Positions 9,532 through 62,981 of a stretch of 64,000 nucleotides of DNA are shown here, in pieces. The DNA lies in contig JAJEEV010000009.1 in NCBI GenBank assembly GCA_022820805.1, positions 62,001-126,000 on the forward strand, read 5' to 3'. The notes beneath the pieces were generated by a model. The model was not told where the DNA came from. It did no database searches and was given only the letters and a program-made list of their open reading frames with translations. Each line of letters starts with the position of its first letter. The stretch's first letter is position 1. Source of the stretch: Acidimicrobiia bacterium (lineage in GTDB: Bacteria > Actinomycetota > Acidimicrobiia > Acidimicrobiales > Aldehydirespiratoraceae). The position numbers were made by a program, and so were the translations under genes.

Positions 9532-9666
9532 AGGCCGAGCGCATAGATGCACATGAACGGCCCATACGGCGCGAGGCTGTGGCCCGAGCGGCCCGTGAGC
9601 GCAGCGAACAAGAGCGGGAATGGCACCGCCGCACCGCGACCGGCTCTCGCCTATCCGCGTGGCCCC
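9532..9666 (+). repeat. 135-bp dispersed element, copy 1
   Basis: It begins AGGCCGAGC and ends CCGCGTGGCCCC; the ends pair imperfectly (GCATAG against CTATCC). It contains the shared core with GTGGCCCGAGCGGCCC and GCAGCGAACAAGAGCGGG. The left flank is CTAG (part of the tetR stop) and the right flank TCAG, so the 4-bp flanks are similar but not identical, unlike copies 2, 3 and 5. An ATG at 9547 opens a 50-codon frame to 9699 through the core, in the same frame as the small ORF at 33508. No clear ribosome site supports it. Confidence 0.8.
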
Positions 9667-9721
9667 TCAGGTGCGGCAGGGGCCCGGGTCCAGCCTTGAT
9701 CGCTCGGACGGCCGGCAGGCG

Positions 9722-10492
9722 ATGTTCTCGGTGAAGGACAAGGTGGCGGTGGTCACCGGGGGTGGAAGCGGGATCGGCCTCGCCACCGTCAAGCGCATGC
9801 TGGCCGCGGAGGCCCGCGTGGCCTTCTGCACCCGCTCGGACAACTCCGAGCTGGCCGAGCAGCTTGGAGCCCTCTTCATCCGGGCCGACGTGAGCGACGA
9901 GGGGCAGGTCAGGGCGCTGATGAGCAAGGTGCGCGACCGGCTGGGACCGATCGATGTGCTGGTCAACAACGCAGGCATCTGGGACATGGACAGCCCTGTC
10001 GAGACAGGCGACAGCGGCGCCTTCAGACAGAACCTGGAAGTCAACGTGCTGGGGACGCTGCACTGCATCAAGCACGGCGCGCCGCTGATGAACGACGGCG
10101 GCGTGATCATCAACATCTCGTCGCTGGCAGCCCACATCGCCTTGCCCGGCTACGGCCCCTACAGCGTGTCCAAGGCCGGTCAGAGCGCCGTGACCCGCAC
10201 CGCGGCCATCGAACTGGGCGACCGCGGCATCAGGGTCGTCGACATCGCGCCGGGCACCGTGGCCACCGAGAACATCGCCAACGAGACCGACACAGAGGCC
10301 GAGATCGCCGCGTTCAACAACCTCACCCCGCTGCGGCGCATCTGCGAGATGGACGAGGTGGCCGCGGCGGTGCACTTCCTGGCGTCCGACGACTGCCGCT
10401 ACATCAGCGGCAGCGCCATGATCCTCGACGGCGGGATGCTCGCAGGGCTGTCCGTCGGCCTGTGCGAGATGCTCGTTCCGGCGAGTGAATGA
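9722..10492 (+). CDS. Short-chain dehydrogenase/reductase
   Basis: A 256-residue classical SDR with cofactor motif TGGGSGIG, NNAG, and catalytic YSVSK (Y-x3-K) after INISS. The ATG at 9722 is chosen because the family start (MFSVKDKVAVVTGG) falls there; upstream in-frame sequence is repeat element. Its stop overlaps the E2 gene by ATGA, so the two are translationally coupled. Located in the tetR unit, it probably oxidises a hydroxy intermediate before or after the 2-oxoacid dehydrogenase step. It most resembles the SDR at 29951 in the DGGxLxAGxSV ending. Confidence 0.87.
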   Translation: MFSVKDKVAVVTGGGSGIGLATVKRMLAAEARVAFCTRSDNSELAEQLGALFIRADVSDEGQVRALMSKVRDRLGPIDVLVNNAGIWDMDSPVETGDSGAFRQNLEVNVLGTLHCIKHGAPLMNDGGVIINISSLAAHIALPGYGPYSVSKAGQSAVTRTAAIELGDRGIRVVDIAPGTVATENIANETDTEAEIAAFNNLTPLRRICEMDEVAAAVHFLASDDCRYISGSAMILDGGMLAGLSVGLCEMLVPASE

Positions 10493-11769
10493 GCCAGATG
10501 AGCACGGAAGTACTCATGCCCAAGGTCGGCATGTCGACCAGCGAGATCACGTTGAACGAGTGGCTGGTTGCGTCCGGGGACGAGGTCGCCACCGACCAGG
10601 TCATCGCCACCGTCGAGAGCGAGAAGACCGAGGTCGAGGTCGAGGCGGTCTGCGACGGGTTCATCGACATCCGGCTCGATGAGGGCGGGGAAGCGAAGCC
10701 CGGCGCCCTGATCGCCGTCATCGGCGACAGCCGGGAGGCGGCCGCCGAACATCGCGACCGGGCCGTGTCCGCCGAAGCGGCTCCCCCGGACGCTCATCGG
10801 ACTCCTGGCACTGATGCCGCCCCGCTGGCAACGCCGCCCCGCGAGCCGGTCACCGGCGGCACCGACCGTGTCGAGGCGACGCCCATCGCCCGCAAGCTGG
10901 CCGCCGAGAACCGGATCGACCTCTCGCTGGTGACCCCGACCGGTCCCCAGCGGCGGGTGGTGCGCGCCGACGTCGACCGGGCCATCGCCCTCGTCCGATC
11001 AGCAACCGAAACAGGCTCCGGCCGGCGCCCGGATGCCGGCGGTTACGAGGTCGCGCCCGAGCAGGTCGCCGGTCTCACCGCCGCGAGGGTGCACCGGCTG
11101 AGCGGCATGACCGGAGCCATCTCCGCTCAGATGATGGCCAGCCTGCACGGGATGGCTCAGCTCACCATCGGGGGCCGGTGGAACGCAGACCGCTGGGTTG
11201 CCCACCGCGACGGGCTCCTCGCCCGGCAGGATCAACTCGGCTGCCGGGTCAGCTACACCGCGATGATGATCTTCGCGCTGTCGCGGGCCCTGGGCCGGCA
11301 TCCGAATATGAACGCCAGCATCGTCGGCAGCGAGGTCGTCGAGTGGGCCGAGGTCAACATCGGTGCTGCCGTCTCAGCCGGCGTCGCCCACCTCTCGGTT
11401 CCCGTCATCCGCAACGCCGACCAGAAGGGCCTGGTCGAGATCGCCCGGGAACTGGCGGATCTGGCGGCCAGGGTGCGCAACGGCACCATCACCGCTCCTG
11501 AGCTCACCGGCAGCACGTTCACGTTGACCAGCGTCACCGGCAGCGCCAACAGCTGGGGCACCCCGGTGATCAACCCCCCCAACGCCGCCATCCTCGGAAC
11601 CCAGCCCATCGTCGACGCGCCCGTGGTGCGCGACGGGCGAGTCGTCGCCGGCAAGGTCCTGCCCGCCTCGCTCACCTTTGACCACCGGCTTGTGAACGGG
11701 GTCGGCGCCGAGGAGTTCTGCCTCACTGTCAGCCACTTCGTAGAGAGTCCCGAAGAGCTCTTCGACTGA
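10489..11769 (+). CDS. 2-oxoacid dehydrogenase complex E2 (lipoyl acyltransferase)
   Basis: A 426-residue dihydrolipoyl acyltransferase. The N-terminal lipoyl domain has the acceptor Lys in ESEKTEVEVEA (K46). A peripheral-subunit-binding domain spans about residues 125-163 (ATPIARKLAAENRIDL). The C-terminal catalytic domain ends with DHRLVNG. The active-site motif is normally DHRxxDG; here Asp is Asn, so the His is kept but the partner residue is altered. E2 moves the acyl group from E1-bound thiamine to CoA. E1 alpha and beta follow at 11816 and 12787. The ATG at 10489 overlaps the SDR stop. An E3 (lipoamide dehydrogenase) is not in the window. Confidence 0.9.
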   Translation: MSQMSTEVLMPKVGMSTSEITLNEWLVASGDEVATDQVIATVESEKTEVEVEAVCDGFIDIRLDEGGEAKPGALIAVIGDSREAAAEHRDRAVSAEAAPPDAHRTPGTDAAPLATPPREPVTGGTDRVEATPIARKLAAENRIDLSLVTPTGPQRRVVRADVDRAIALVRSATETGSGRRPDAGGYEVAPEQVAGLTAARVHRLSGMTGAISAQMMASLHGMAQLTIGGRWNADRWVAHRDGLLARQDQLGCRVSYTAMMIFALSRALGRHPNMNASIVGSEVVEWAEVNIGAAVSAGVAHLSVPVIRNADQKGLVEIARELADLAARVRNGTITAPELTGSTFTLTSVTGSANSWGTPVINPPNAAILGTQPIVDAPVVRDGRVVAGKVLPASLTFDHRLVNGVGAEEFCLTVSHFVESPEELFD

Positions 11770-11815
11770 GACGCGTCGAGGGCCTGTCACCACAGAAGCG
11801 ACCGGAGCGAACATC

Positions 11816-12790
11816 ATGACAACCGACCAGGATCTGCAGATCGCCCTGCATCGCGAGATGGTGCGGGCCCGCGTCCTCGACGAGGGCCACATGAGGATGA
11901 TCCGGCAGGGGCGCTGCGAGAGCATGTCCCATCCCGCCACCGGCCAGGAGGCGATCTCGGCCGGGATCACCGCCGCGCTGCAACCGGAGGACATCCTCTA
12001 CCCGACATTCCGCGGCTACGGCGACTACCTGGGGCGGGGCACCGACATGAAGGCGCTCGTGGCCGAGCTGATGGGACGCCGGGGAGGCATCAACCGGGGC
12101 GTCGGCGGCATTCACCTCGGCGACCGGGAGCACAACACCCACGGAGTGTCGGGCTGCCTGGGCGCCAACCTGACCATGGCGGTCGGATCAGCGCAGGCGG
12201 TCAAGATGCGCGACGAGCGGCGGGTGGTGATGGTTCACGTCGGCGAGGGCGCGTTCAACACCCCCGACTCGCACGCCATGATGAACATGGCTGCGATCTG
12301 GAACGTCCCGCTGGTCATCATCGTCACCAACAACCAGTTCGTCGAGTTCAGCTACCACGACATCCACTTCCCGCCCAACGCCGAGGGCATCGGGACCCGG
12401 GCCGGGTACTACCGGATCCCCAACAAGTGCCTCGACGGCAACGATGTGGAGTTGGTCTACCGCGAGGCCCGCGACGCCACCGAGTGGGCCCGCGACGGCA
12501 AGGGGCCGGTCCTGCTGGAGTTGGTCACGTGTCGCATAGCCGGCCACTTCGACGCCGACCCCCTCGACTACATCGATGGGGAACTGATCGAGGAGTGGAA
12601 GCAGAAGGACCCGGTCAGCCGCTACGAGGCGGTCCTGGTCCGGCGCGGGACAATGGACTCGGACTCCATCGAGGCCGCCCACAGGGCGGCCCGGGCCGAG
12701 GTCGACGAGGCGTTCAAGCTGGCTCTCGAGGACGAGCCGGCGAGCGCCGGCTACCTGCTCGAGCATCTGGCCGAGACCGGGGTGCTGTGA
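11816..12790 (+). CDS. Thiamine-dependent dehydrogenase E1 alpha subunit
   Basis: A 324-residue E1 alpha of the acetoin/branched-chain 2-oxoacid dehydrogenase type. The thiamine-diphosphate motif is GEGAFNTP (143-150) through NN (172-173). Two conserved positions differ: GDG is GEG, and the Glu normally just after the HE pair of this motif is Ala (HAMMN). RGYGDYLGRG and GVGGIHLGD are typical of AcoA-like subunits. GGAG precedes the ATG at 11816 by eight bases. It overlaps the beta subunit by GTGA. The complex would decarboxylate a 2-oxo compound or cleave an acyloin; the exact substrate is open, and the altered motif residues make activity worth testing. Confidence 0.88.
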   Translation: MTTDQDLQIALHREMVRARVLDEGHMRMIRQGRCESMSHPATGQEAISAGITAALQPEDILYPTFRGYGDYLGRGTDMKALVAELMGRRGGINRGVGGIHLGDREHNTHGVSGCLGANLTMAVGSAQAVKMRDERRVVMVHVGEGAFNTPDSHAMMNMAAIWNVPLVIIVTNNQFVEFSYHDIHFPPNAEGIGTRAGYYRIPNKCLDGNDVELVYREARDATEWARDGKGPVLLELVTCRIAGHFDADPLDYIDGELIEEWKQKDPVSRYEAVLVRRGTMDSDSIEAAHRAARAEVDEAFKLALEDEPASAGYLLEHLAETGVL

Positions 12791-13785
12791 CCATGCCCCC
12801 CGTGAAGTACATGGATGCGCTGACCCAGGCACTGACCGAGGAGATGCGACGCGACGACCGGGTGTTCCTGCTCGGCGAGGACATCAGGGTCTCGAACCTC
12901 GGCATCACCGCCGGCCTGGTCGAGGAGTTCGGCCCCGAACGGGTCGTCGATACGCCCATCCACGAGAACGCTCTGGTCGGGGTGGCCATGGGGGCGGCGC
13001 TGGAGGGAATGAGACCCGTGGTCGAGATCATGTTCTCGGACTTCGCGCTGCTGGCCGCCGATCAGATCGTGAACCAGGTGGCCCAGTGGCGCTACATGAC
13101 CCAGGGCCAGTACGAGGTGCCGTTGGTGATCCGGATGCCGACCGGCGGCGGCTTCGCCTACGGGATGCACCACTCGCAGTCCACCGAGACCCACTTCTTC
13201 CAGACGCCCGGCCTGCCCATCGCCATGCCGTCGACCCCAGCCGACGCCAAGGGCCTGTTGAAGACCGCGATCCGGTCCAACGACCCGGTCCTGTTCCTCG
13301 AGCACATGCTGCTGTGCCTGCAGAACGACGAATCGGAGGTGCCCGACGGCGACCATCTGGTGCCGTTCGGGGAGGCGGCCGTCCGCCGGGAGGGCCATGA
13401 CGTCACCGTCGTGGCCTTCGGGGCCATGGTCAACCAGGCGCTGACCGCTGCTGATGCGCTGGAGGGACGGGGTGTCTCCGTCGAGGTGGTCGACCCCCGC
13501 ACGATCGTCCCGCTCGACGCCGACACGATCTTCGCGTCGGTCGCCAGGACCAACCGTCTGGTCGTCATCGAGGAGAGCCGCATACGCGGCGGCCTGGGGG
13601 CCGAACTGGCCGCCCAGGCCGCGACCGGCGACAACTTCTTCCTGCTGGACGCCCCCATCGAGCGGGTCGCGGCTCCCAATATCCCGGTGCCCTGCACGTC
13701 CCAGCTCGAACAGGCCTACCTCCCGGATGCCGAGACTCTCATCGAGGCGATCGACCGCACACTGGCCTACCGCGGCAGCTTCTAG
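12787..13785 (+). CDS. Thiamine-dependent dehydrogenase E1 beta subunit
   Basis: A 332-residue E1 beta with the family pattern FLLGEDIRV near the N-terminus, a conserved PIHENALVGVAMGAALEGMRP segment (seen as PIHENALVG and GAALEGMRP), and the C-terminal transketolase-like domain (VVDPRTIVPLD, VIEESRIRGG). The GTG at 12787 overlaps the alpha-subunit stop as GTGA; an ATG two codons later (12793) is the alternative. Beta pairs with alpha to form the decarboxylase that feeds the E2 at 10489. It is the last gene of the tetR-SDR-E2-E1 unit; the next gene has its own promoter and operator. Confidence 0.9.
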   Translation: MTMPPVKYMDALTQALTEEMRRDDRVFLLGEDIRVSNLGITAGLVEEFGPERVVDTPIHENALVGVAMGAALEGMRPVVEIMFSDFALLAADQIVNQVAQWRYMTQGQYEVPLVIRMPTGGGFAYGMHHSQSTETHFFQTPGLPIAMPSTPADAKGLLKTAIRSNDPVLFLEHMLLCLQNDESEVPDGDHLVPFGEAAVRREGHDVTVVAFGAMVNQALTAADALEGRGVSVEVVDPRTIVPLDADTIFASVARTNRLVVIEESRIRGGLGAELAAQAATGDNFFLLDAPIERVAAPNIPVPCTSQLEQAYLPDAETLIEAIDRTLAYRGSF

Positions 13786-13827
13786 CGGCAGGTCGCAGAG
13801 GTGTTCGTTCATCCCGCAGTCCACCGC

Positions 13828-13877
13828 TTGACACGTCGGGACTCCCCATGTCTAATGTGGGTCAAGACCCACATTAG
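13828..13877 (+). promoter_or_regulatory. Promoter with operator 2 (perfect 12-bp arms)
   Basis: TTGACA (13828-13833), a 17-bp spacer and TCTAAT (13851-13856) form a strong promoter. The operator at 13852-13877 has perfectly complementary arms CTAATGTGGGTC and GACCCACATTAG around AA and covers the -10 and predicted start point. This is the best copy of the 26-bp site also found at 8908, 16921 and 22514, and so the best reference for the consensus. Confidence 0.75.
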
Positions 13878-13895
13878 TGCGAACGGGGAGGACGT

Positions 13896-14279
13896 GTGAG
13901 GCCGGAACGGAAGCTGGCTGTCGAGAGGCTCTATGAGTGCCTGGCCGACGGGCGCTACGACGAGGCCCGGAGCCTGCTCCACCCGGATTATCGCTCCAAC
14001 ACCCAGCCCCACGAGACCAGCCCCGACGCACTGATCGAAGAGATCGACGCGATCAAGCGAGCCATGACCTCCCTGAAGCGCGTGACGATCCTGACGATGG
14101 CAGAGGGCGACATGGAGGTGATCCTTCACCGGACCGAGGGGACCGACCCGTCCTCGGGCGAGCCCGTCGCGTTCCGGGCAGCCGACTTCTTCCGGAAGGC
14201 TGACGACGGACGCTTCATCGAGCACTGGGACGCGGTGACCTTCGACGGCGGCGACCTCTTCGACACCATCGAGCTATGA
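13896..14279 (+). CDS. SnoaL-like / nuclear transport factor 2 fold protein
   Basis: A 127-residue protein of the SnoaL/NTF2 fold. It starts with a helix pair (VERLYECLADGRYDEARSLL), then HPDYRSNTQ, and ends with FFRKADDGRFIEHWDAV, the usual pattern of the polyketide-cyclase-like group. Such proteins act as cyclases, isomerases, hydratases or decarboxylases on small hydrophobic compounds; no catalytic residue can be named here. The GTG at 13896 has GGGGAGG just upstream. The promoter carries the best operator of the TetR set. Repeat element copy 2 lies between this gene and the SDR at 14433. Confidence 0.8.
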   Translation: MRPERKLAVERLYECLADGRYDEARSLLHPDYRSNTQPHETSPDALIEEIDAIKRAMTSLKRVTILTMAEGDMEVILHRTEGTDPSSGEPVAFRAADFFRKADDGRFIEHWDAVTFDGGDLFDTIEL

Positions 14280-14281
14280 GG

Positions 14282-14416
14282 AGGCCGAGCAGATAGATGC
14301 GCGAGTCCGGCCCATACGGTGCGAGGCCGTGGCCCGAGCGGCCCGTGAGCGCAGCGAACAAGAGCGGGAATGACACAGCTTCGACGCGACAGACTCTCAC
14401 CTATTCGCGGATGCTC
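14282..14416 (+). repeat. 135-bp dispersed element, copy 2
   Basis: It is flanked by TGAG on both sides (14277-14280 and 14417-14420); the match extends to TGAGGAGGC. The left flank contains the SnoaL-like stop codon, and the right flank supplies the AGGAGG ribosome site of the SDR at 14433. The core is intact, while the outer ends are the most diverged of the four full copies (CTATTCGCGGATGCTC). An ATG at 14297 opens a 40-codon frame ending at 14419. Confidence 0.82.
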
Positions 14417-14432
14417 TGAGGAGGCAGATTAC

Positions 14433-15230
14433 ATGAGCCTAGAAGGAAGGATCGCCGTGGTAACCGGCGCGTCGCACCCGCGGGGCATGGGCGCCGCGGT
14501 GGCGGCCAAGCTCGCCTCGGCGGGCGCGGCGGTGGGGTTGGTCGACCTCGAGAGCACTGCCGGCGCGCTGGCCGAGCGGACCGCCGGCATCGTGGCGTCC
14601 GGTGGCCGAGCCCTGGCCGTGCATGCCGACGCCACCGATCCCGATTCCGTGCAGTCATGCGTGGCCGCGGTCGTCGAGGGACTCGGAGCCCCGGACATCC
14701 TGGTCAACAACGCGGGGGTGGGGATCGGAAGCCACCAGTTGCTGGCGAACTCAGAGGAGATCTGGTCGCAGACCCTGGCCGTCAACCTCATGGGAGTCAA
14801 CCGGTTCAGCTGCGCGGTGATCCCCCACATGCAGTCGGCCGGCGGAGGCGTCATCGTCAACAACGCCTCAGTAGCGGGCCTGGGCGGGATGCTCGGCATC
14901 CCCGCGCCCTACACGGCCAGCAAGCACGCCGTGATCGGGCTGACCAAGGCCATCGCGGTGGAGTTCGGCCCGGACAACATCCGCTGCGTGGCCGTCTGCC
15001 CCGGGTCGGTCAAGACTCAGATGCACGCCCGGGTCCTAGATCTGCACATGACCACGTACGGCTTGACCTACGACGAGGCCGAGGCCTTCGAGGTCGACGC
15101 GATCCCGCTGGGCTACTCGTGCGAGCCCGAGGAGGTGGCCGGCGTGGTGGCCTTCCTGGTCGGCCCCGAGGGCCGCTACCTGACCGGGGTGAGCATCCCT
15201 GTCGCGGGCGGGATGGCGCCCGGCCTGTAG
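14433..15230 (+). CDS. Short-chain dehydrogenase/reductase
   Basis: A 265-residue SDR. The cofactor loop is TGASHPRGMG, longer and more polar than the standard TGxxxGIG and like the loop of the SDR at 16012 (TGASRPNGQG). NNAG and the catalytic YTASK (Y-x3-K) are present. AGGAGG nine bases upstream fixes the ATG at 14433. It lies downstream of operator 2 with the SnoaL-like gene and the AroM-like gene at 15276. Its C-terminal part (CEPEEVAGVVAFLVGPEGRY) is standard. The substrate is unknown. Confidence 0.86.
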   Translation: MSLEGRIAVVTGASHPRGMGAAVAAKLASAGAAVGLVDLESTAGALAERTAGIVASGGRALAVHADATDPDSVQSCVAAVVEGLGAPDILVNNAGVGIGSHQLLANSEEIWSQTLAVNLMGVNRFSCAVIPHMQSAGGGVIVNNASVAGLGGMLGIPAPYTASKHAVIGLTKAIAVEFGPDNIRCVAVCPGSVKTQMHARVLDLHMTTYGLTYDEAEAFEVDAIPLGYSCEPEEVAGVVAFLVGPEGRYLTGVSIPVAGGMAPGL

Positions 15231-15275
15231 GCGCTGAGAGGCACCGGCAGGCAGACCCGAACAAGGAGACAGACC

Positions 15276-15977
15276 GTGAGGAAAATGGGGGTGCTGGTCC
15301 CGTACCGCTCCGACCCGGAGATGATCGCCTTCGTCGAGGAGCACCTCGACCTTGAGGCCGATCTGGTGGTGCGGGGCTCTCAGGACGGCATGAGCGACGA
15401 GGAGCTGCGGGCCCTGTCGGAGGGGGTGGAGCCGAACTCGTACGCCGAGATCCTCGAGGACGGCTCGACGGTGAACATCACCCGCGAGGTCGTGCTCGAG
15501 GGAATGCAGAGCCAGGCGCGGAGGCTGCTCGACGACGGCTGCGAGGCGGTGATGATCTGCTGCACGCTGCCGTGGACCGAGCTCGACGCTATGTCTGATG
15601 TGGTGACCCCGTACACGATCCTCGAGGACACCGCGGCCACCATCGCCGGTTCCGGCGGCGCCATCGGCGTGATGCAGCCGGTCGAGGCGGCCATGGAGGA
15701 GGAGATCGAGCACTGGCTGGCCCTCGGTGAGCGCCGCGGGCTGGAGATCCACGCCCGCTACGCGGCCCCGCAGGTGCCGGGCGAGGACGTGGTGTTCAGC
15801 GACGACCAGTACGCCGAGGTGGCCCGGTCGCTGGCCGCCCAGGACGTGGACGTGATCGTCATGGACTGCATGGCCTACACCGAGCACCACCGGGAAGTGG
15901 TATCAGAGGCGTCAGGCAAGCCGGTCCTGCGGGCGATGCAGCTGACCGGAATGGTCGTCGAGCACGCCTACAGCTAA
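15276..15977 (+). CDS. AroM-family protein (Asp/Glu racemase-like fold)
   Basis: A 233-residue protein matching the AroM family along its length: SDEELRALSEGVEPNSYAEIL, then a strand ending MICCTLPW, then VDVIVMDCMAYTEHHREVV, comparable to the MLDCLGF region of E. coli AroM. AroM proteins resemble aspartate/glutamate racemases and maleate isomerases, with catalytic Cys residues in the two halves (here in ICCT and DCMAY). The biochemical role is not established even in E. coli. AAGGAG precedes the GTG at 15276. It is the last gene of the operator-2 unit, so an isomerase or amide-related step in the catabolic pathway is plausible. Confidence 0.7.
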   Translation: MRKMGVLVPYRSDPEMIAFVEEHLDLEADLVVRGSQDGMSDEELRALSEGVEPNSYAEILEDGSTVNITREVVLEGMQSQARRLLDDGCEAVMICCTLPWTELDAMSDVVTPYTILEDTAATIAGSGGAIGVMQPVEAAMEEEIEHWLALGERRGLEIHARYAAPQVPGEDVVFSDDQYAEVARSLAAQDVDVIVMDCMAYTEHHREVVSEASGKPVLRAMQLTGMVVEHAYS

Positions 15978-16011
15978 CTCGCGACGGCCCTGCCGCGGCT
16001 CGACAGCCCTG

Positions 16012-16878
16012 TCAGGCGCCGACGATGTTGATCCCGCCGTCCACCCGCAGGGCGATGCCGGTGATGAACTTGGCTCCGGGCGTGCACAGGAATGCGACCG
16101 CCTCGGCGATGTCTTCGGGGGAGGCGTAACGGCCCGCAAGATGGGCCATGTTCTCCATCATCTCGACGAGTTGCTCGGCGCTCTCGGCGAAGCCGCGCCT
16201 GGCGAACAGCTCCGCTTCAGGCTGGCTGATGTCGGTCCACACGTTGCCGGGGCACACCGCGTTCACCCTGATGTTGTCCGGGCCGAACTCCTCGGCCATC
16301 GTCTTCATCATCCCGACCGCACCGTGCTTGGTTCCGTTGTAGCAGCCTCCGCCCGAGAAGGCGGCGAGGCCGGCCACCGACGTGTTCTGCACGATCGATC
16401 CGCCGCCTCGCCGGCGCATGTGCGGCACCACGGCCGCCGCGAAGTCGACCGGCGCCTTGAGGTTGACCCGGTAGGAGGCGTCCCACATGTCTTCGGTGAG
16501 GTCGGCGATGAAGTGGCCGTGCAGCGACCCGGCGTTGTTGACGAGGATGTCGATCCCGCCGAAGGCCTCGAGCGCGGCATCGACGACTGTCTGGATCTGA
16601 GCCCTGTCGGTGAGGTCGGCGGTGACCCCGATGGCCTCGGTTCCGAGCGCCTTGACCTCCTCGACCGCCTCGGCCAATATCTCGGCTGAACCCACGCCCA
16701 GCCCTTCGTAGTTGTAGCGGGGGTCGTCGCCCTCGAGGTCGGTCATGACGAGTTGGGCGCCCCGCACCGCCAGCGCCTTCGAGATGGCCCTTCCCTGGCC
16801 GTTGGGCCGGGACGCCCCGGTGACGATGGCCACCTTGCCCTCCAGCGTCTGGGACTTGATCAGCTCCTCGATGTTCAT
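16012..16878 (-). CDS. Short-chain dehydrogenase/reductase
   Basis: A 288-residue SDR with cofactor loop TGASRPNGQG, an insertion around DDPRYNYEGLGVGS before the second helix, NNAG, and catalytic YNGTK (Y-x3-K). The insertion makes it longer than usual SDRs. The ATG at 16878 lies 43 bases from operator 3 (16921-16946), so it can be transcribed from its own repressor-controlled promoter as well as from the long minus-strand unit that starts at 22492. It converges with the AroM-like gene (34 bp between stops). It is probably NAD-dependent; the substrate is unknown. Confidence 0.86.
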   Translation of the reverse strand: MNIEELIKSQTLEGKVAIVTGASRPNGQGRAISKALAVRGAQLVMTDLEGDDPRYNYEGLGVGSAEILAEAVEEVKALGTEAIGVTADLTDRAQIQTVVDAALEAFGGIDILVNNAGSLHGHFIADLTEDMWDASYRVNLKAPVDFAAAVVPHMRRRGGGSIVQNTSVAGLAAFSGGGCYNGTKHGAVGMMKTMAEEFGPDNIRVNAVCPGNVWTDISQPEAELFARRGFAESAEQLVEMMENMAHLAGRYASPEDIAEAVAFLCTPGAKFITGIALRVDGGINIVGA

Positions 16879-16920
16879 GGTCAGGTTCCCCGCTTTCTGG
16901 GTCGGGCCGGCAACGACTGC

Positions 16921-16946
16921 TTATTGTGGGTCTCCACCCACTATAC
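16921..16946 (-). promoter_or_regulatory. Operator 3 with -10 box TATAGT
   Basis: Arms TTATTGTGGGTC and CACCCACTATAC around TC match the 26-bp repeat of the other operators with a few changes; the GTGGGT/ACCCAC core is intact. On the minus strand TATAGT (16945-16940) is a good -10, but no clear -35 lies 17 bp upstream. It sits between the MaoC-like gene and the SDR at 16012 and would allow separate control of that last gene. Confidence 0.6.
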
Positions 16947-16974
16947 GCAGGCGGCGGGTCACGCGGGTTGAGGA

Positions 16975-17490
16975 TCAGGCGGACGAGAAGTCCATGTAGA
17001 GGAGGTACTCGGCGTAGGTGGTGGTGACCTCCTCGTCATGGTGGCGCTGGAGGAAGGTGACCGAGAAGGTGAGAAGGACGCTGCCGTTGGCCTTGTCCTC
17101 CACCGAGAGCACCCCCACGGATGCCCGCACCGGGAGGTCGATGCGTGTCGGTGCCACGAAGCGCACCTTGTTGAAGCCGTAGTTCAGGGTGAAGCCGCGT
17201 TCCGGGTCGTCGTTGACGAAGGGGAGTGCGGTCAGCTTCTTCATCACCGACGGGATGAGGGCGACCATGTAGATCCCGTGGGCGATGGTGCCGCCCCACG
17301 GGGTGCCTCTGGCCCACCCGGGGTCATTGTGCATGTGGTCCCAGTCATCGGTGAGCGCCGAGAACACGTCAGCTTCGACCTGGGTCACCTGGAACCACTC
17401 GGTGGTGCGGAGCTCGCCGCCGACCATGGCCCGCAGCTCATCGAGGACCTGCCCGGTGTCGGCAACGGCCCTGTCCCCTCCGGTCGTCAT
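16975..17490 (-). CDS. MaoC-like hot-dog hydratase
   Basis: A 171-residue MaoC-type protein. The hot-dog active-site pattern is seen in DDWDHMHNDP, followed by GGTIAHGIYMVAL on the hot-dog helix. These enzymes hydrate enoyl-CoA or related thioesters. Its ATG at 17490 overlaps the stop of the upstream acyl-CoA synthetase as ATGA, so the two are translationally coupled, and the pairing suggests CoA activation followed by hydration. The substrate chain is unknown. It ends 28 bp before operator 3 in transcription order. Confidence 0.86.
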   Translation of the reverse strand: MTTGGDRAVADTGQVLDELRAMVGGELRTTEWFQVTQVEADVFSALTDDWDHMHNDPGWARGTPWGGTIAHGIYMVALIPSVMKKLTALPFVNDDPERGFTLNYGFNKVRFVAPTRIDLPVRASVGVLSVEDKANGSVLLTFSVTFLQRHHDEEVTTTYAEYLLYMDFSSA

Positions 17491-19619
17491 GGTTGGACGC
17501 CCGGTTGAGCAGTCGGCTCGCGCAACGAGAGGGCGATGTCGACGGCCGACGCACCGTCGGCGTGGACGATGAGCGGGTTGATCTCCGCGAACGAGATGTG
17601 GTGGTGGGCCGCCCACGCGAACTCCGACATGGCGAGGAGGGCCCGCGCGGCCGCATCCCGATCAGACGGTCCAGCCCCGCGGAAGCCGTCGATGAGCTGG
17701 CCGATGCGGCCGGTCGACACAATCTCCGCTGCGGTGTCCTCGCTGATCGGGACGGTGTGGATGGTGGCCTCGCTGATCAGGTCGACGAGCACGCCTCCGG
17801 GACCGACCACCAGCATCGGGCCGAATCCCGGCTCGTTGCGCACGCCGACGATGAGCTCCAAGCCGTCCTGGGCCATGGGCTGAGCCACGACGTGCGAACC
17901 GGGCAGGCTGAGTTCTCCGAGGACGGCGACGATGTCGTCGAAGGCCGCTTCAACGGCGACGGCCTCGGCCAGGTTGGTCTTGACGAGACCGTGCTCGGTC
18001 TTGTGGACCAGACCGGGTGCGCTCCCCTTGAGCACGATCGGGCGGCCCCACTGGTGCAGCGCGGTCACCGCCTCGGCGCGGTCGCCGACCAGCCGGCACT
18101 CCACCATCGGCACCCCCGCTCGGTTCATCACCTCGAAGCGTGCCGCCTCATCCAGCCCGTCCCAGCCGGTGAGACCGGCCGGGGCGGCCACATCGGCCAG
18201 CCTCGGCATTGCTGTCGTAGGAGCGGCGTCCCCGCACTTGGAGATCACCTCGAGTCCGGCCCGCAGGCCGTGGAGCACCACGCCGCCCAGCTCGCGGGCT
18301 CGCTGCTCGATCTGTGCATTCCGCCCGAGGGCTGCCACCGTGTTGACGATGACCAGCCTGGTGTCGTTGTCCGGCTCGGTCAGCAAGCCGTCCCGCATCA
18401 CGTCGAGCACGAAGGCGTCGTCATGGCCGCCGGCGGCGGGGGCACCGAAGACCACGGCCATCGTGCCGAAGGCGGTGTCGCCGGCCATGGCATCGCAGAC
18501 GGTGCGCACACCCTCGACATCGAAGCCGAGGGTTATGCCGTCCATCGGGTTGTTGGGCGAACGGAAGTCTGGCAGTAGTTCGTTGAGGCTGATCGCGCCC
18601 TCATCGGAGAACGGCGGCAGTTCCAGCCCGGCATCGTCGGCGAGGTCGGCAGCGAGCCCGGCCTCGCCGCCCGACAGTGTCATGACGCCCACCCCGCCGC
18701 GGGCGGGCGGATCCTTGAAGGCGAGCAGGTAGGCCCCGGCCTCCAGCAGAGCGTCGATGTCGTTGAAGCGGGGGATGCCGAGCCGCTGAAAAAAGGCCGA
18801 GTACACGGCGTCATCGCCGGCCAGCCCGCCGGTGTGGCCGGCGATGGTAGCCGAGCCGGTCTCGCTGCGACCGTTGCGCACCACGGCCAGGCGCTTGCCG
18901 TTGGCCCGGGACCGCTGGGCCGCGGCCGCGAAGGCGGCTGGGTTGCGGATCGTCTCGATGAACATCAGGACCACTTCGGTGGAGGGATCGTCGGCCAGGT
19001 GGTCCAGGGCATGAGCGGAGGTGACCACCGCTTCGTTGCCAGTGGAGAGGATGCTGGCGATCCCCAGGCCCCGGTCGTCTATGGACAGCATCTGGGCCAC
19101 CGAGCCGCTCTGGGCGATGATCGAGACCGGCCCCGGAGTCCCCAGCCGCTTCATGTAGGTGCCCCAGAGGGTGGCCTCGGTGTGGCGGTTCATGGTGCCC
19201 AGGCAGTTCGGGCCGACCACGGCCATCCCGGCGTTGTTGGCGATGCGGGCCAGCTCCGCCTCCCGGGCCTTGCCCTCAGCGCCCCCGTCGCCGAAGCCGG
19301 AGGCGAACACGATGGCGCTGCGAGCCTCGGTCGCGACGGCCTGCTTGAGGGTGTCGAGGACGCGATCAGCACCGACGGCCAGCACCACGGCGTCGAGCGG
19401 GCCCCGGCAGGCGTCGAGGCTTCCTACGCACTCCACCCCTCGCACCTCGCTGTGCCTGGGGTGGACCGCCACCAACTCGTGCCGGTAGCCGTGGGCCCGG
19501 AGGTTGTCGAGGCACTCGCCGCCGAACGAGCCCTCGCGGTCGGAGGCCCCGACGACGGCCACCGACCGGGGGTCGAGCAGGGCCCCGATGCCGCTGCGCA
19601 TCCGATCGCCGGCCCGCAT
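17487..19619 (-). CDS. Acyl-CoA synthetase (NDP-forming), fused alpha-beta
   Basis: A 710-residue acetyl-CoA synthetase (ADP-forming)-like protein. The N-terminal CoA-binding domain has VAVVGASDREGS and GPNCLGT. The succinyl-CoA-ligase-like domain carries the phospho-His candidate in AGHTGGLAGDD. The C-terminal ATP-grasp domain shows PIVLKGSAPGLVHKTEHG and FAEINPLIV. The family activates carboxylic acids to CoA thioesters with ATP. It starts 2 bp after the creatininase-like stop and overlaps the MaoC gene, so it is part of the minus-strand unit from operator 4. It probably activates an acid produced by the oxygenase and dehydrogenases. Confidence 0.9.
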   Translation of the reverse strand: MRAGDRMRSGIGALLDPRSVAVVGASDREGSFGGECLDNLRAHGYRHELVAVHPRHSEVRGVECVGSLDACRGPLDAVVLAVGADRVLDTLKQAVATEARSAIVFASGFGDGGAEGKAREAELARIANNAGMAVVGPNCLGTMNRHTEATLWGTYMKRLGTPGPVSIIAQSGSVAQMLSIDDRGLGIASILSTGNEAVVTSAHALDHLADDPSTEVVLMFIETIRNPAAFAAAAQRSRANGKRLAVVRNGRSETGSATIAGHTGGLAGDDAVYSAFFQRLGIPRFNDIDALLEAGAYLLAFKDPPARGGVGVMTLSGGEAGLAADLADDAGLELPPFSDEGAISLNELLPDFRSPNNPMDGITLGFDVEGVRTVCDAMAGDTAFGTMAVVFGAPAAGGHDDAFVLDVMRDGLLTEPDNDTRLVIVNTVAALGRNAQIEQRARELGGVVLHGLRAGLEVISKCGDAAPTTAMPRLADVAAPAGLTGWDGLDEAARFEVMNRAGVPMVECRLVGDRAEAVTALHQWGRPIVLKGSAPGLVHKTEHGLVKTNLAEAVAVEAAFDDIVAVLGELSLPGSHVVAQPMAQDGLELIVGVRNEPGFGPMLVVGPGGVLVDLISEATIHTVPISEDTAAEIVSTGRIGQLIDGFRGAGPSDRDAAARALLAMSEFAWAAHHHISFAEINPLIVHADGASAVDIALSLREPTAQPGVQP

Positions 19620-19621
19620 CG

Positions 19622-20395
19622 TCAGTTGCTCCCGTCCCCCTCAGGGCGAAACTCGGCCTCCAGGATGCGCACCATGCCCTGCACGCAGGCGTCGAAGATC
19701 TCCCGTCCGAGCGCCGCCGTTGCCCGGTGGGGATTCGACAGTGCCCCGGTCGCCGGTACCCAGTCGTCGTGGGGAGGGTGGCAGTCGTAGCTGGGGAACT
19801 CCTTGAAGGCCTGCTCCGGCGCGGCGTCCATGTCGACCAGGTCGCCGAAGAGGTGCAGGCACAGTGACGTCTCGAAGACCCCGGCGTGCTCGTAGGCGAG
19901 GTCCAGCGGAGGGCCACCGACGTGGCGCTCGAGGATCGCCTCGTCGAACTGCTCGAAGTAACGGGCCTGCACGATCTTGACGCCTTCCCGCCCGCTCTGG
20001 CGGAACTCCCGGATGGCCAGGTCGCACGCCTCGGTGAGGAACATCTGGTTCTCGTAGTGCCCGTCGATGATGGCAAGCTTGTTGGCCCCGCCGCGAGCGA
20101 GGCCGCGCAGCACATCGACGATCGCGCTCGACAGCGAGTGGCCGTCAAGGCCGACGGTGCCGGGGAACTGGGGTCCGCCGCCCGTGCGCAGCTGCGACTT
20201 GTAGCCGTAGACGAAAGGAGGGGCGACCACGGCATCGATGTGCTCGGCCGTGGCCAGCGCCACCGCCTCGGCCAGCATGTAGTCCACGCCGAGGGGCAGG
20301 TGGCGGCCGTGCTGCTCCAGCGCTCCCACCGGGAGCAGCACCACCGCACCGTCGGCGATCCGATCGGCGTGCGCCCGCCACGACAGGTGGGCCAT
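19622..20395 (-). CDS. Creatininase-family amidohydrolase
   Basis: A 257-residue creatininase-fold protein. The metal-binding motifs are EQHGRHLPLG near the N-terminus, IDGHYENQ in the middle (the family GHGGN position, altered) and HAGVFETS. Members hydrolyse cyclic amides (creatinine) or small amides and formamides in cofactor metabolism. The ATG at 20395 is chosen because the family begins there; AAGGG lies upstream. It is packed between an SDR (32 bp) and the acyl-CoA synthetase (2 bp), so an amide or lactam ring-opening step in the same pathway is reasonable. Confidence 0.87.
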   Translation of the reverse strand: MAHLSWRAHADRIADGAVVLLPVGALEQHGRHLPLGVDYMLAEAVALATAEHIDAVVAPPFVYGYKSQLRTGGGPQFPGTVGLDGHSLSSAIVDVLRGLARGGANKLAIIDGHYENQMFLTEACDLAIREFRQSGREGVKIVQARYFEQFDEAILERHVGGPPLDLAYEHAGVFETSLCLHLFGDLVDMDAAPEQAFKEFPSYDCHPPHDDWVPATGALSNPHRATAALGREIFDACVQGMVRILEAEFRPEGDGSN

Positions 20396-20427
20396 CGAGC
20401 TGGAGCCCTTGGAGGTTGGGCGACCGG

Positions 20428-21174
20428 TCACCCTTCGCGGACGCGGACGCCGGCCATGACGCCGCCGTCGATCAGGAAGTCGGCGCCGGTGGCGTAGCTC
20501 GACTGGTCCGAAGCGAGGAACAGGACGGCGTTGGCGATCTCGTGGGGCTGGCCGATGCGTTCGAGTGTCGTGATCTTGTGGGTGTAGGCCGCTTCCTCCT
20601 CGATCATCATCGGAGTGTCGATCATGCCGGGGCAGACGCTGTTGGCGCGGATGCCGTGGCGGCCCCATTCGAAGGCTGCGCTCCGGGTCAGGCCTCGCAC
20701 CGCGAACTTGCTGGTGACGTAGGCGCCGGCCTCGTCGGACGCGATGAACCCGTTCGCTGATGAGATGTTGACGATCGAACCGCCGCCGTTGCGCCTCATG
20801 GACTCGAACACGGCTCGCATCCCGAGGAACACGCCGGTCGCGTTGACCGCCATCGTCTGCTCGTACAGCTCCAGAGACGTGCTCTCGAGCGGCGAGAACC
20901 GTGCGATGCCGGCGTTGTTGACCAGGATGTCGGGCGGGCCGAACGTGTCCTCGCAGTGCTGGACGGCCGCGGCCCACTGGTCCTCGTCGGTCACGTCGAG
21001 CGTGAACGCTGCGGCTGCGGATCCGATCTCGGCAGCCACCGCCCGGCACGTCTCGGCGTTGATGTCGCACAGCAGGACGCGGGCCCCGTACCGGGCCAGA
21101 GTCCTCGCCGACTCGGCACCGAGACCTTGGCCGGCTCCGGTGACGATCGCGATCTTGCCCTCTACCTGAGTCAC
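20428..21174 (-). CDS. Short-chain dehydrogenase/reductase
   Basis: A 248-residue classical SDR with TGAGQGLG, NNAG, NISSANG and catalytic YVTSK (Y-x3-K). The GTG at 21174 follows a GGGGGG run and starts exactly at the domain. It lies 52 bp after the Rieske oxygenase and 32 bp before the creatininase-like gene. In pathways headed by a Rieske oxygenase an SDR often oxidises the hydroxylated product, which would fit, but this is inference. Confidence 0.87.
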   Translation of the reverse strand: MTQVEGKIAIVTGAGQGLGAESARTLARYGARVLLCDINAETCRAVAAEIGSAAAAFTLDVTDEDQWAAAVQHCEDTFGPPDILVNNAGIARFSPLESTSLELYEQTMAVNATGVFLGMRAVFESMRRNGGGSIVNISSANGFIASDEAGAYVTSKFAVRGLTRSAAFEWGRHGIRANSVCPGMIDTPMMIEEEAAYTHKITTLERIGQPHEIANAVLFLASDQSSYATGADFLIDGGVMAGVRVREG

Positions 21175-21226
21175 TCGCCCCCCTTTGGGGTCGGATGGCG
21201 GCGGCGGTGTGGACACGCCGCCGCGG

Positions 21227-22492: not shown

Positions 22493-22513
22493 CACTCTTC
22501 CTCCCGGTCCGTG

Positions 22514-22563
22514 CTAATGTGGGTCTTGACCCATATTAGCCACCCGAGGCTCGTCACTGTCAA
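22514..22563 (-). promoter_or_regulatory. Promoter with operator 4 for the Rieske unit
   Basis: On the minus strand TTGACA (22563-22558), a 17-bp spacer and GCTAAT (22540-22535) lead to the Rieske gene. The operator at 22514-22539 has arms CTAATGTGGGTC and GACCCATATTAG around TT. The layout is the same as at operator 2: the operator covers the -10 and start point. The site also lies about 100 bp upstream of the plus-strand binding protein at 22643 and may affect that gene too. Confidence 0.75.
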
Positions 22564-22642
22564 GCGATGGGCTGCGGGGAGAACCGACAGCTCGCCGGCC
22601 CCGGCGCCGGATGCCCGACCGGCGGGCGAGGAGAACCAGACA

Positions 22643-24076: not shown

Positions 24077-24211
24077 AGGCCGAGCGGATAGGCGGGACAA
24101 CGCGGCGCATACGGCGCGAGGCCGTGGCCCGAGCGGCCCGTGAGCGCAGCGAACAAGAGCGGGAATGACACCCCCGCCCCGCTACCGGCTCTCACCTATC
24201 CGCGTGGCCCC
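24077..24211 (+). repeat. 135-bp dispersed element, copy 3
   Basis: It is flanked by TTAG on both sides (24073-24076 and 24212-24215). The terminal inverted repeat is clear: AGGCCGAGCGGATAGG at the left end against the reverse complement of CCTATCCGCGTGGCCCC at the right. The core is identical to copies 2 and 5 over about 44 bp. The left flank forms the stop codon of the binding-protein gene. In the frame of the small ORF at 33508 it reads without stops after an in-frame TAG, but has no ATG. Confidence 0.85.
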
Positions 24212-24285
24212 TTAGCGCTTTCGGAACATGCTGGCCCCCGGGGGGATCGTCCGCTAGGTAATCCCCGGTCAGGCAGGAGTTGGAC

Positions 24286-25158: not shown

Positions 25159-25164
25159 CCGTCG

Positions 25165-25197
25165 GGCCCCGCTCGGCGGGTTCCCCAGCTAGCTGGC
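25165..25197. terminator. Candidate bidirectional terminator
   Basis: In the 43-bp convergent gap, a stem CCCGC-TCG-GCGGG (25168-25180) is followed by TTCC, and a 12-bp palindrome CCAGCTAGCTGG (25185-25196) comes next. The T-run is short, so the call rests mainly on the stem and its position between convergent genes. Confidence 0.35.
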
Positions 25198-60443: not shown

Positions 60444-62836
60444 GCGTCCGCCGGCTCGGTGCCGCCGATCCGCGCCCGCGTCTCGACCGCGCCCCAGGCA
60501 GCGACGCCGCCGACCGCGATGGCGCCCAGCACCCACACCCACGCGACCAGCGACGGGCTGTCGAGTTGAAAGAACTCGCGGACGAAGGGCAGGGCCATCG
60601 TCGCGCCGTAGGAGGCGGCTCCGGATGCGGCCAGACCCACCTTCCACGGTCTGAGGGGCCGGCTGATCAGCACCAGGATCACCAGGCCGATCCCCAGCAG
60701 GGTCATGGTGGCCGAGGTGCGGGCCTCGTAGAGGCTGACGCCGTCGAGGCGGCGCACGACCTCGTAGAGGGCGAAGGTCACCGCGGCGGCGGCCGTCCCC
60801 GCGGGCAGCGAGAACCGCAGCACCCGGCCCAGGAATCCGGGCCGCACGAGATGGTCGTCGGCGGCCAGGGCCAGGAAGAAGCCGGGAACGCCGACGGAGA
60901 AGGTGCCGATGAGCGTCAGGTGGCGGGGCAGGAAGGGGAACGGCGAGCCCACGATCCCGATGAGCACGGTGAGCAGCACCGCGTAGGCCGCCTTGGTGAT
61001 GAACAGGTTGGCGACCCGCTCGATGTTGTTGATCACGCGGCGGCCCTCGGCCAACACCCGGGGCATCGTCGCGAACCGGTTGTCGAGCAGCACCAGCTGG
61101 GCCACTGCCCTGGCTGCGGAGGATCCGGTGCCCATGGCGATGCCCATGTCGGCGTCCTTGAGGGCCAGCACGTCGTTGACGCCGTCGCCGGTCATGGCCA
61201 CTGTCCGTCCCCGGGACTGGAGGGCGTGGACCATGGCCCGCTTCTGGTGCGGGTCGACCCGCCCGAACACCGCGTTCGACTCCAGCGTGTCGGCCAGATC
61301 GCCGGGCTCGGAGGGAAGCCGGCGAGCGTCGACGGCGGGCACGGTGACCCGGCCCTCACCGTCGTCCGCCGGGCCGCTGGTGATTCCTGCTCGATGGGCC
61401 ACGGCGGCCACAGTGGCGGGGTGGTCGCCGGAGATGACCTTCAGGTCGACGCCCTGATCGCGGAAGTAGGCGAAGATCTCCGGCGCGTCGGAGCGGATCG
61501 TGTCGCCGAGATGCACCAGGCAGACCGGCTCCCGGTCGTCGGGAAGGCTGTCGTCGGATGATGCGGCCGCTGTGGAGCGGGTCACGACCAGCACCCGGCC
61601 CCCCTCGGCGGAGGCGGCTGCAGCCCTGGCTCGGGCCTCGTCGCCGGCCTCGCCGGTCCGCAGCAGCACGTCGGGCGCGCCCAGGTGAAACGTGCCCCGG
61701 CCCGCGAAGCTGGCCGCGGCCCACTTCCGGGCCGACGAGAACGGCACGCTGCTGGTCATCTTCCATCCGCTGGGCCGATCGCCGACGGCGGCCGCGATGG
61801 CGGCCAGGGTGGCGTTGGGGGCGGGGTCGGCCGAGGCGAGCGCGGCGAGCGTCTCCGTCGCGTCGGTCTCGGTGGTCGAGCCGAGGGGCTCGGCACGGCC
61901 GAACGAGATCTCCCCGGTGGTGATGGTCCCCGTCTTGTCGAGGCACAGCGTGTCCACCCTCGCCAGCAGCTCCACCGACGCCAGCTCCTTGGCGAGCGCC
62001 TTGCGGCGGGCTAGGGCGACGACGCCGGTGATGAACGCCAGGCTGGTCAGCAGCACGAGCCCGTCGGGCACCATGGCTACCGCGGCCGCGACCGTGCCCT
62101 GAAGCGCCTCCTGCCAGCGGTCCTCGGTCGCCAGCAGCCTGGCCAGCAGCAGCACCGTCGCCAGCGGGATGATCCACGTCAGTCGGCGCAGGATCACGTT
62201 GACGCCGCCCTTGAGTTCGCTGCCGGCCAGCTTGAAGCGGCGGGCCTCCTCCGACAGGCGGGCCGCATAGGAGTCGGCTCCGACGGCGGTGGCCCGGTAC
62301 CAGCCCGCCCCCGCGCTGACGAACGACCCCGACATAACACCGTCGCCGGGGGCCTTGTCCACCGGATCGCTCTCGCCGGTCAGCAGCGACTCGTCGACCT
62401 CCAGGCCCCGGGCCGCCACCACCTCGCCGTCCACCACCACCTGATCGCCGGGACGCAGCTCCAGGACATCGTCGGCCACCACTTCGCCGGTGTCGATCTC
62501 CAGCGCCCGGCCGTCGCGCACAACCCGGGCCCTCGGTGCCGACAGCACGGCCAGCCTGTGCAGCGTGCGGCGGGCCCTGAGCTCCTGGGCGATGCCGATC
62601 ACGCTGTTGGACACCACGACCCCGGCGAACAGGGCGTCGGCCGGGAACCCGGCCACCATGATGAGCACGAACATCGAGCCGATGATGGCGTTGACCGGGG
62701 TGAGCACGTTGGCCCGCACGATCTGGCCCACCGTGCGGACGGGCGCGTCGGGCACATCGTTGGTGCGTCCCTCGCGCCGGCGCTGATCCACCTCGGCCGC
62801 GCTGAGTCCTCGGGGCGCGGAGGTCAGATCAGGCAT
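60440..62836 (-). CDS. P-type ATPase, CtpE-like cation transporter
   Basis: A 798-residue P-type ATPase of nearly the same length as mycobacterial CtpE, a calcium-related ATPase. Actuator motif LTGESDP at about 153-159, phosphorylation site DKTGTIT with Asp 300, hinge MTGDGVNDVLALKDAD, and PDGL in the fourth helix at the place where metal pumps carry PEG or CPC. No Cys-Pro-Cys, so not a soft-metal pump. N-terminal helices and six C-terminal helices are visible. The ATG at 62836 is the first in-frame Met outside repeat copy 5; codons upstream belong to the repeat. Substrate inferred by similarity only. Confidence 0.87.
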   Translation of the reverse strand: MPDLTSAPRGLSAAEVDQRRREGRTNDVPDAPVRTVGQIVRANVLTPVNAIIGSMFVLIMVAGFPADALFAGVVVSNSVIGIAQELRARRTLHRLAVLSAPRARVVRDGRALEIDTGEVVADDVLELRPGDQVVVDGEVVAARGLEVDESLLTGESDPVDKAPGDGVMSGSFVSAGAGWYRATAVGADSYAARLSEEARRFKLAGSELKGGVNVILRRLTWIIPLATVLLLARLLATEDRWQEALQGTVAAAVAMVPDGLVLLTSLAFITGVVALARRKALAKELASVELLARVDTLCLDKTGTITTGEISFGRAEPLGSTTETDATETLAALASADPAPNATLAAIAAAVGDRPSGWKMTSSVPFSSARKWAAASFAGRGTFHLGAPDVLLRTGEAGDEARARAAAASAEGGRVLVVTRSTAAASSDDSLPDDREPVCLVHLGDTIRSDAPEIFAYFRDQGVDLKVISGDHPATVAAVAHRAGITSGPADDGEGRVTVPAVDARRLPSEPGDLADTLESNAVFGRVDPHQKRAMVHALQSRGRTVAMTGDGVNDVLALKDADMGIAMGTGSSAARAVAQLVLLDNRFATMPRVLAEGRRVINNIERVANLFITKAAYAVLLTVLIGIVGSPFPFLPRHLTLIGTFSVGVPGFFLALAADDHLVRPGFLGRVLRFSLPAGTAAAAVTFALYEVVRRLDGVSLYEARTSATMTLLGIGLVILVLISRPLRPWKVGLAASGAASYGATMALPFVREFFQLDSPSLVAWVWVLGAIAVGGVAAWGAVETRARIGGTEPADA

Positions 62837-62846
62837 GCCGGCTAAG

Positions 62847-62981
62847 AGGCCGAGCGGATAGGCGGCACAACTCGCTGCATACGGCGTGACGCCGTGGCCC
62901 GAGCGGCCCGTGAGCGCAGCGAACAAGAGCGGGAATGACACCGCTGCGACGCGACGGGCTCTCGCCTATCCGCGTGGCCCC
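62847..62981 (+). repeat. 135-bp dispersed element, copy 5
   Basis: It is flanked by TAAG on both sides (62843-62846 and 62982-62985). It has the cleanest terminal inverted repeat of the set (AGGCCGAGCGGATAGGCG against the complement of CGCCTATCCGCGTGGCCCC) and an intact core. It lies in the 187-bp gap between two minus-strand genes but is oriented opposite to both, so unlike copies 1-3 it is not in the sense strand of the flanking transcripts. The rest of this gap shows nothing else. Confidence 0.85.

Follow-up and report, generated by a model that had tools for sequence, protein, structure and literature searches.

The window analysed here (the whole 64,000-nucleotide stretch, positions 62001-126000 of contig C23) belongs to a 3.40-Mb Acidimicrobiia genome in 53 contigs that is 94.8% complete (the home genome, G000), and it carries five copies of a 136-bp miniature inverted-repeat transposable element (MITE). 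It is near certain that these window copies have moved: all five are absent from the matching loci of the sister genome G008. As judged from sequence comparison, the family was very probably mobilised in trans by an IS5-family transposase of IS1031 type, and it encloses a core of about 50 nucleotides which appears to be a separate unit, spread more widely than the MITE ends and not just the interior of the MITE.

Empty sites, copies and layout

The initial annotation had proposed a mobile element and suggested comparing filled and empty sites between strains; an element always present with conserved flanks would have spoken against mobility, and no such outcome appeared at any of the five window loci. 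The sequences flanking the empty G008 sites are 99.7 and 99.7% identical to those of the copy at 14282, 99.0 and 97.6% at 9532, 99.7 and 96.0% at 24077, 97.0 and 96.6% at 33524, and 94.0 and 89.3% at 62847. The copies at 9532 and 14282 are absent, with both flanks joined, in nine genomes each (G008 and eight more), and for these two the most parsimonious history is insertion in the G000 lineage, since more distant members of the genus also lack the element. Two of the empty alleles, at 14282 (TGAGG) and 24077 (TTAG), carry the target once, letter for letter. Weighing against a plain duplication at the other three sites, the G008 allele reads CTGCG and not CTAAG at 62847, CTAG at 9532, where the filled copy is flanked by CTAG and TCAG, and CGAAGG at 33524, where the filled flanks are CGAG and CAAGG; these alleles differ by a few bases from a simple repeat and are less clean. 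For the copy at 24077, the flanks lie about 4 kb apart in G012, G001 and G014, so that these genomes are uninformative. The reciprocal case was also found: two elements, one being a short form, were detected in ten G008 stretches, and G000 lacks both at loci whose flanks are 82.7-94.0% identical. At the site of a short form (L287, 8770-8866, minus strand), G000 keeps AGAGCGGGAG, identical to the tail letters of the core, which could reflect either a deletion or an insertion next to a look-alike sequence. Window positions 8888-26000 are 96-99% identical to G008:C15 outside the elements, yet copies within a genome diverge by about 6-15%, so recent insertions seem to be drawn from several source copies.

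All four exact 135-bp copies with inverted ends given in the initial annotation (9532-9666, 14282-14416, 24077-24211 and 62847-62981) were recovered when the sequence was re-read, and a fifth, diverged copy on the minus strand, at 33524-33656, was added to that list. The described 4-bp flanks are likewise present, namely TGAG/TGAG at 14282, TTAG/TTAG at 24077, TAAG/TAAG at 62847 and CTAG/TCAG at 9532. When the G that leads each element is counted (see below), copy 1 spans 9531-9666 (136 bp), with non-identical flanks CTA (9528-9530) and TCA (9667-9669); copy 2 spans 14281-14416 between TGA at 14277-14279 and TGA at 14417-14419, with one additional G (14280) ahead of AGGCC; copy 3 spans 24076-24211 between TTA at 24073-24075 and 24212-24214; copy 4, diverged, covers 33524-33657 on the minus strand; and copy 5 spans 62846-62981 between TAA at 62843-62845 and 62982-62984. 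The terminal inverted repeats are imperfect and about 17-19 bp long; they are exemplified by copy 3, whose left end (24076-24094) reads GAGGCCGAGCGGATAGGCG and whose right end (24193-24211) reads GGGGCCACGCGGATAGGTG on the minus strand.

The statistics that follow are based on the window plus 72 stretches that were picked because they gave a BLAST match or contained a left end, and thus not at random. Of the 90 copies in this sample, 70 are near-full, 19 are left-only and one lacks the left end; the partial ones were excluded, and the number used varies with the limits set on flanks and ends (70 for the fit to TNAG, 71 for the 3-bp repeat, 69 for stop codons and 75 for identity). Across 75 copies, mean identity to the consensus is 96.7% in the core (positions 39-95), compared with 77.8% and 80.6% in the two arms, 77.7% at the right end and 94.3% in the left 16 bases, which bears out the earlier description of a near-invariant core within variable outer parts. 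The family displays the features expected of a MITE: 136 bp in length, no transposase gene, many copies and terminal inverted repeats. An end helix of 16 pairs, picked by hand from one fold and then counted over alignment A1, is paired in 82.4% of cases, compared with 26.7-48.9% when the two sides are slid; A1 holds 66 of the 75 copies; the nine others, which include the window copy at 33524, are longer, shorter, diverged or truncated at a contig end. In the folded consensus of the whole MITE the covariation term is -0.11, that is, almost none, and the end helix is absent from that fold.

Two arrangements were observed in addition. A 92-bp short form with the left end and core and no right arm occurs three times head-to-tail at L216 (2039-2311; G000:C17, near 36336), and at L018, L009 and L028 one element ends and, within a few bases, another (or just its left end) begins.

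The copy number, which the initial annotation suggested checking, is high: in the home genome at least 42 element matches were found, partial ones included (from scoring 40 of 199 candidates), and the left-end pattern with at most one mismatch occurs 132 times, compared with 0 for a reversed control. All 15 other genomes of the genus match the element, with at least 14 matches each except for G004, which has 1. In total, 23 of the 61 genomes searched have matches, made up of the genus, the four g2 members of its family and, from elsewhere in the order, three genomes of other families, in which mostly the core alone is matched. Contigs start or stop inside an element, or a few bases from one, at L012, L034, L015, L187, L184, L185, L189 and L193; these repeats therefore probably break the assembly, and the copy number is underestimated. 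Neither the plasmid nor the phage collection gave a match to copy 3, and the exact core pattern was not found in viral contigs.

Target duplication and the candidate transposase

The initial annotation had described a direct repeat fitting TNAG and named the lack of TNAG repeats in most other copies as evidence against mobility. The duplication itself exceeds what shuffled sequences give; the 4-bp TNAG form was revised, as strict TNAG stands at the left flank of 33 of the 70 near-full copies and YNAG at 61 of them. Of these 70 copies, 53 allowed anchoring of both flanks, and among them left and right agree at the variable base in 39, against 15.8 in shuffles; agreement at the Y is weaker (34/53 against 25.3, P 0.007). 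The base directly ahead of AGGCC is G in 71 of 71 copies. A 3-mer repeat at one fixed right-hand offset occurs in 24 of 71 copies, compared with 6.4 in shuffles (the highest of 1000 being 14), and at offsets 0-3 in 29, compared with 11.9 (the highest of 2000 being 22). In 26 of these 29, the base after the right-hand 3-mer is G; the repeat is TAA, TTA, TGA or TCA in 21 of them, the rest being CTA (5), CAA, CCA and GAG. The target repeat thus reads as 3 bp, YNA and in most cases TNA; the G after it is taken as the first base of a 136-bp element and at the same time as the base preferred next in the target. This parsing was adopted because the related insertion sequences (IS) make 3-bp repeats and most of them also start with GAG. 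It matches the IS1031 group of the IS5 family, for which an excerpt of PMC12016507 gives an exclusive 3-bp repeat with TNA preferred; for ISLxx6, an excerpt of PMC2516522 describes a single open reading frame and a three-nucleotide recognition site, both of them common among members of the IS1031 group.

Candidate drivers were found in relatives, which is where the suggested search for a transposase with matching terminal repeats succeeded; in the home genome none was detected. The DDE_Tnp_1 domain (PF01609) has matches in 9 of the 16 genus genomes, the home genome not among them, and an IS with MITE-like ends was present at two (L233 and L237) of the 20 DDE_Tnp_1 loci scanned. A third end-like match in that scan, L226, was rejected as part of a MITE copy. 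The 277-aa IS protein, the one protein tested, scores above the cut-off with the NCBIfam model NF033580 (IS5 family transposase) and with the Pfam models DUF4096 and DDE_Tnp_1, and whole or partial relatives of it occur in 12 of the 61 genomes. From 30 IS loci that were fetched, both ends could be placed in 11, four of those being copies from G038. These IS are 945-998 bp long, most begin with GAG, and 10 of the 11 have an exact 3-bp repeat, which outside G038 is TAA, TTA or CAA. Their termini resemble those of MITE subfamilies: the MITE right end of the CAAATAGG type agrees at 18 of 19 positions with the left end of IS L304, the right end of the GGGTAGG type at 18 of 19 with the right end of IS L300, and the left end of the GGGTAGG type at 17 of 19 with the left end of L300, the GAATAGG type reaching just 15 of 19. 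As right ends of different subfamilies match different IS lineages, and left ends do so only partly, more than one driving transposase would fit. In addition, the two MITE ends co-vary: cells changed on both sides number 30 (three pairs account for 25), compared with 16.3 in shuffles; by itself this is weak support because it traces to few events common to subfamilies.

Several observations weigh against an IS5-type driver. Neither a PF01609 match nor a match to the IS protein was found in the home genome, at the completeness given above, and only three of the 16 genus genomes (G001, G010 and G012) match the protein. An exact 3-bp repeat accompanies a minority of MITE copies under either offset rule. 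Among the IS, the four G038 copies repeat CAG or CTG and not TNA, and L300 is flanked by TAA and TAT. The commonest MITE right end (GGGGCCACGCGGATAGGCG) reaches at most 16 of 19 positions with seven IS ends, and the best of these IS comes from another family. The number of end pairs with both sides changed is 6; shuffles give 4.8, with 100 of 500 reaching 6, and 24 cells remain when the ends are slid by +1. Finally, the core was not found in the eight IS loci searched, so that simple deletion within one of these IS does not account for the MITE.

While these points lower its certainty, we consider mobilisation in trans by an IS5-family transposase very probable, as the shared end sequences and repeat length suggest and as the initial proposal of an element moved in trans had it; both the loci without the element and the IS5 elements with similar ends in relatives support that proposal. 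Placement in the IS1031 group is most likely, with the target repeat, and not a transposase tree, as its basis. In the proposed mechanism, a transposase acting in trans, from an element now missing from the home genome or its assembly, would bind both ends of the MITE and cut it out or copy it; joining of the MITE to a staggered cut would then duplicate 3 bp. A scan for long elements between two MITE-like ends gave 14 pairs, and the three inspected by eye were neighbouring short elements around ordinary genes.

Other routes to such a family were weighed against IS5-type mobilisation. That a different, so far unseen transposase moves the MITE, the resemblance to IS5 ends being convergence or shared ancestry only, is unlikely; it would agree with the failure to detect an IS5 transposase in the home genome and with the lack of a close IS match for the main right end, but MITE and IS have the same terminal layout, the 3-bp repeat and the right-end subtypes in common. 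The identical 4-bp flanks at three of the four initially listed copies would suit an IS701-type transposase with a 4-bp TNAG repeat, almost all IS701 elements having exactly 4-bp repeats according to an excerpt of PMC2266710. We regard this as very improbable, as the G ahead of AGGCC is invariant (71/71), the IS with similar ends make 3-bp repeats, and DDE_5 (PF13546) has no match in any of the 16 genus genomes.

Two further explanations concern the hairpins within the element. In repetitive extragenic palindromic (REP) systems with REP-associated tyrosine transposases (RAYT), a hairpin unit is spread as single-stranded DNA by a Y1 (HUH) transposase, and the core is indeed a high-copy hairpin unit, sometimes in tandem, with loops mostly of the GNA type that are very stable in DNA mini-hairpins (PMC4686876, in part). 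Against this, Y1_Tnp has no match in the 16 genus genomes and matches 2 of the 29 further genomes that bear the core, as well as 1 of 5 others. Moreover, the MITE makes target duplications, which the REP/RAYT (Y1) family is not known to make. A REP/RAYT origin is accordingly quite improbable. The most improbable of these explanations holds that the copies are old, fixed regulatory hairpins that have not been mobile recently, with flanks that merely look duplicated. The 6-15% divergence among copies, which excludes a single recent burst, would be in line with it; it was ruled out for the window copies by the loci without the element, given flanks up to 99.7% identical in G008 and nine genomes without the element at each of two loci.

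A structured core with a wider distribution

The core is a unit of about 50 nucleotides made of two hairpins on a short base stem. A covariance model (R1), built from 30 varied cores, was used to locate it, and in the window it lies at 9571-9620 (copy 1), 14321-14370 (copy 2), 24116-24165 (copy 3), 33569-33618 on the minus strand (copy 4) and 62886-62935 (copy 5). The first hairpin, GGCC-CGAGC-GGCC, and the AGAGCGGG tail are near-invariant. In the second hairpin the stem sequence is free yet stays paired, as in GTGAGC/GCGAAC (with two G-A mismatches), GGCGGC/GCCGCC, GGCGCC/GGCGCC, GGCACC/GGTGCC and GTCGCC/GGCGAC, and in most cores a GNA loop closes it (29 of the 33 rows with the hairpin, plus 2 with GNNA).

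The structure of the core is well supported by its pattern of substitutions. Over 35 matches, the covariation score is 0.173 compared with 0.039 in shuffles, the structure is 87.5% paired compared with 76.2% in shuffles and 26-45% when slid by 1-3, and 33 cells are changed on both sides compared with 11.5 in shuffles. The alignment of these 35 was fitted to the structure and includes several rows per genome, and a slide of -2 yields 25 cells, which tempers these figures. In the unfitted alignment of 30 cores the margin narrows, with 6 cells changed on both sides compared with 1.1 in shuffles and 2-5 when slid; the corresponding score is 0.124 compared with 0.090 in shuffles and 0.036-0.055 slid. 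The case for structure rests on covariation because the core alone folds no better than shuffles: the 52-nt core of copy 5 has a z of 1.12 as RNA and the G043 core a z of -0.15. The whole of copy 5 folds better than shuffles, with a z of -5.03, and -2.92 on the other strand. No Rfam family matched the core in the window at gathering scores, nor in the interval 62800-63020 at E values up to 1. Its covariation suggests that selection maintains the structure of the core, whether in RNA or in single-stranded DNA. GNA and GNNA loops both make very stable DNA mini-hairpins in the same excerpt of PMC4686876, which hints at single-stranded DNA, and G-U type changes in the first hairpin fit RNA as well.

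The initial annotation had described the core as the inner part of the element; the wider search revised this to a unit that is more than the MITE interior. The core model matches 30 of 296 genomes of the class, in 23 of 149 genera and 13 families. In a phylum-wide draw, the core was found in 4 of 396 genomes including the home genome, all of the same order and two of them with one match each. Among the 80 loci listed for the exact core (at least 106 stretches), all but one are titled as Acidimicrobiia, Acidimicrobiales or Acidimicrobiaceae metagenome-assembled genomes. The remaining one, L126 (JAGWAT010000066.1), is a contig titled Alphaproteobacteria 277c_14; an Acidimicrobiia bin, 277c_9, is similarly named, and the contig may be misbinned.

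Loci with the core in other families were best-scoring or hand-picked, not random. Within the 90 bp ahead of the core, an IS5-type left end was present at 11 of 40 loci outside the genus (one of them weak), in families f8, f25, f48, f56 and f58, and in that same upstream scan no IS5 end was found beside the core at the other 29. In other families (L337, L342, L344, L346, L369-L371, L374 and L381), inspection by eye shows a different, second hairpin ahead of the core, with GGTAYCC (or GGCACCC) at its turn. An ATG stands two bases past the core in the four G041 loci read, where a stop is also seen ahead of it by eye. Our best guess is that the core acts as a REP-like element within messages, in their 3' untranslated or intergenic regions. 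More tentatively, and with doubt outweighing confidence, it can be read as a previously undescribed structured nucleic acid of Acidimicrobiia at gene junctions, RNA or single-stranded DNA, for which the IS5-MITE ends would in several families be the vehicle, placing it precisely onto stop codons.

Stop codons and known systems

Copies lie exactly at a coding-like stop in 26 of the 69 sampled cases, compared with 71 of 5414 YNAG sites in 204 kb. In the window, copy 1 sits at the TAG stop of a TetR-type gene (Pfam TetR_N), copy 2 at the TGA stop of a SnoaL-like gene (Pfam SnoaL_2) and copy 3 at the TAG stop of a periplasmic-binding-protein gene at 22076-24076 (Pfam Peripla_BP_6). Among control sites outside gene interiors, stops account for 81 of 648 TNAG or CTNA sites and 13 of 83 CTNAG sites. 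The size of the excess is rough because the gene finder is crude, missing genes in copies and controls alike. Since the duplication restores the stop (TAG, TAA or TGA), the protein encoded upstream is unchanged by such an insertion. Part of the excess must come from selection against gene disruption, and the excess as such would reflect selection and target choice together.

Regarding known systems, the MITE is a new family of a known kind, an IS5-family MITE, and the core is its novel part. Its likeness to IS5 extends to the 3-bp repeat with TNA preference and, through the one protein tested, to the IS of relatives; unlike IS5 and IS1031 elements it encodes no transposase, and its interior does not derive from these IS. 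The IS of relatives in turn depart from IS1031 in that some repeat CAA, CAG or CTG. Other bacterial MITEs, such as MITEAba12, are alike in their short length, inverted ends, target repeats and inferred mobilisation in trans, as far as excerpts on them go; in contrast to those so described, the present family has a structured core that is better conserved than its arms and right end and that occurs without these ends in other families. REP sequences and bacterial interspersed mosaic elements (BIME) with RAYT are also high-copy hairpin units, often near stop codons and sometimes in tandem, whereas here the genus lacks a Y1 transposase match and has MITE ends with 3-bp repeats of the DDE type. 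Acidimicrobium ferrooxidans belongs to the same class. REP-like palindromic repeats of that species were counted with RepRanger, according to an excerpt of PMC12306157, and the comparison with them is by counts and not by sequence. Our literature search (core letters, Acidimicrobi- repeats, sponge/Acidimicrob- IS or MITEs, and IS5 MITEs at stop codons), in a collection that lacked most subscription papers, found no description of the element family among the matches listed, and no paper for the letters of the core.

The core would matter for its covarying structure, repeated many times per genome across part of 13 families within a single class and without an Rfam match, and for its coupling to a transposon that is often on stop codons without altering the protein. 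It would illustrate cleanly how a mobile vehicle spreads a folded element to the ends of genes, and the role of REP-like repeats at 3' ends, a long-standing question, would become testable in a new lineage.

As a side observation, tandem repeats with periods of 15-54 were found at window positions 22796-22943, within the periplasmic-binding-protein gene.

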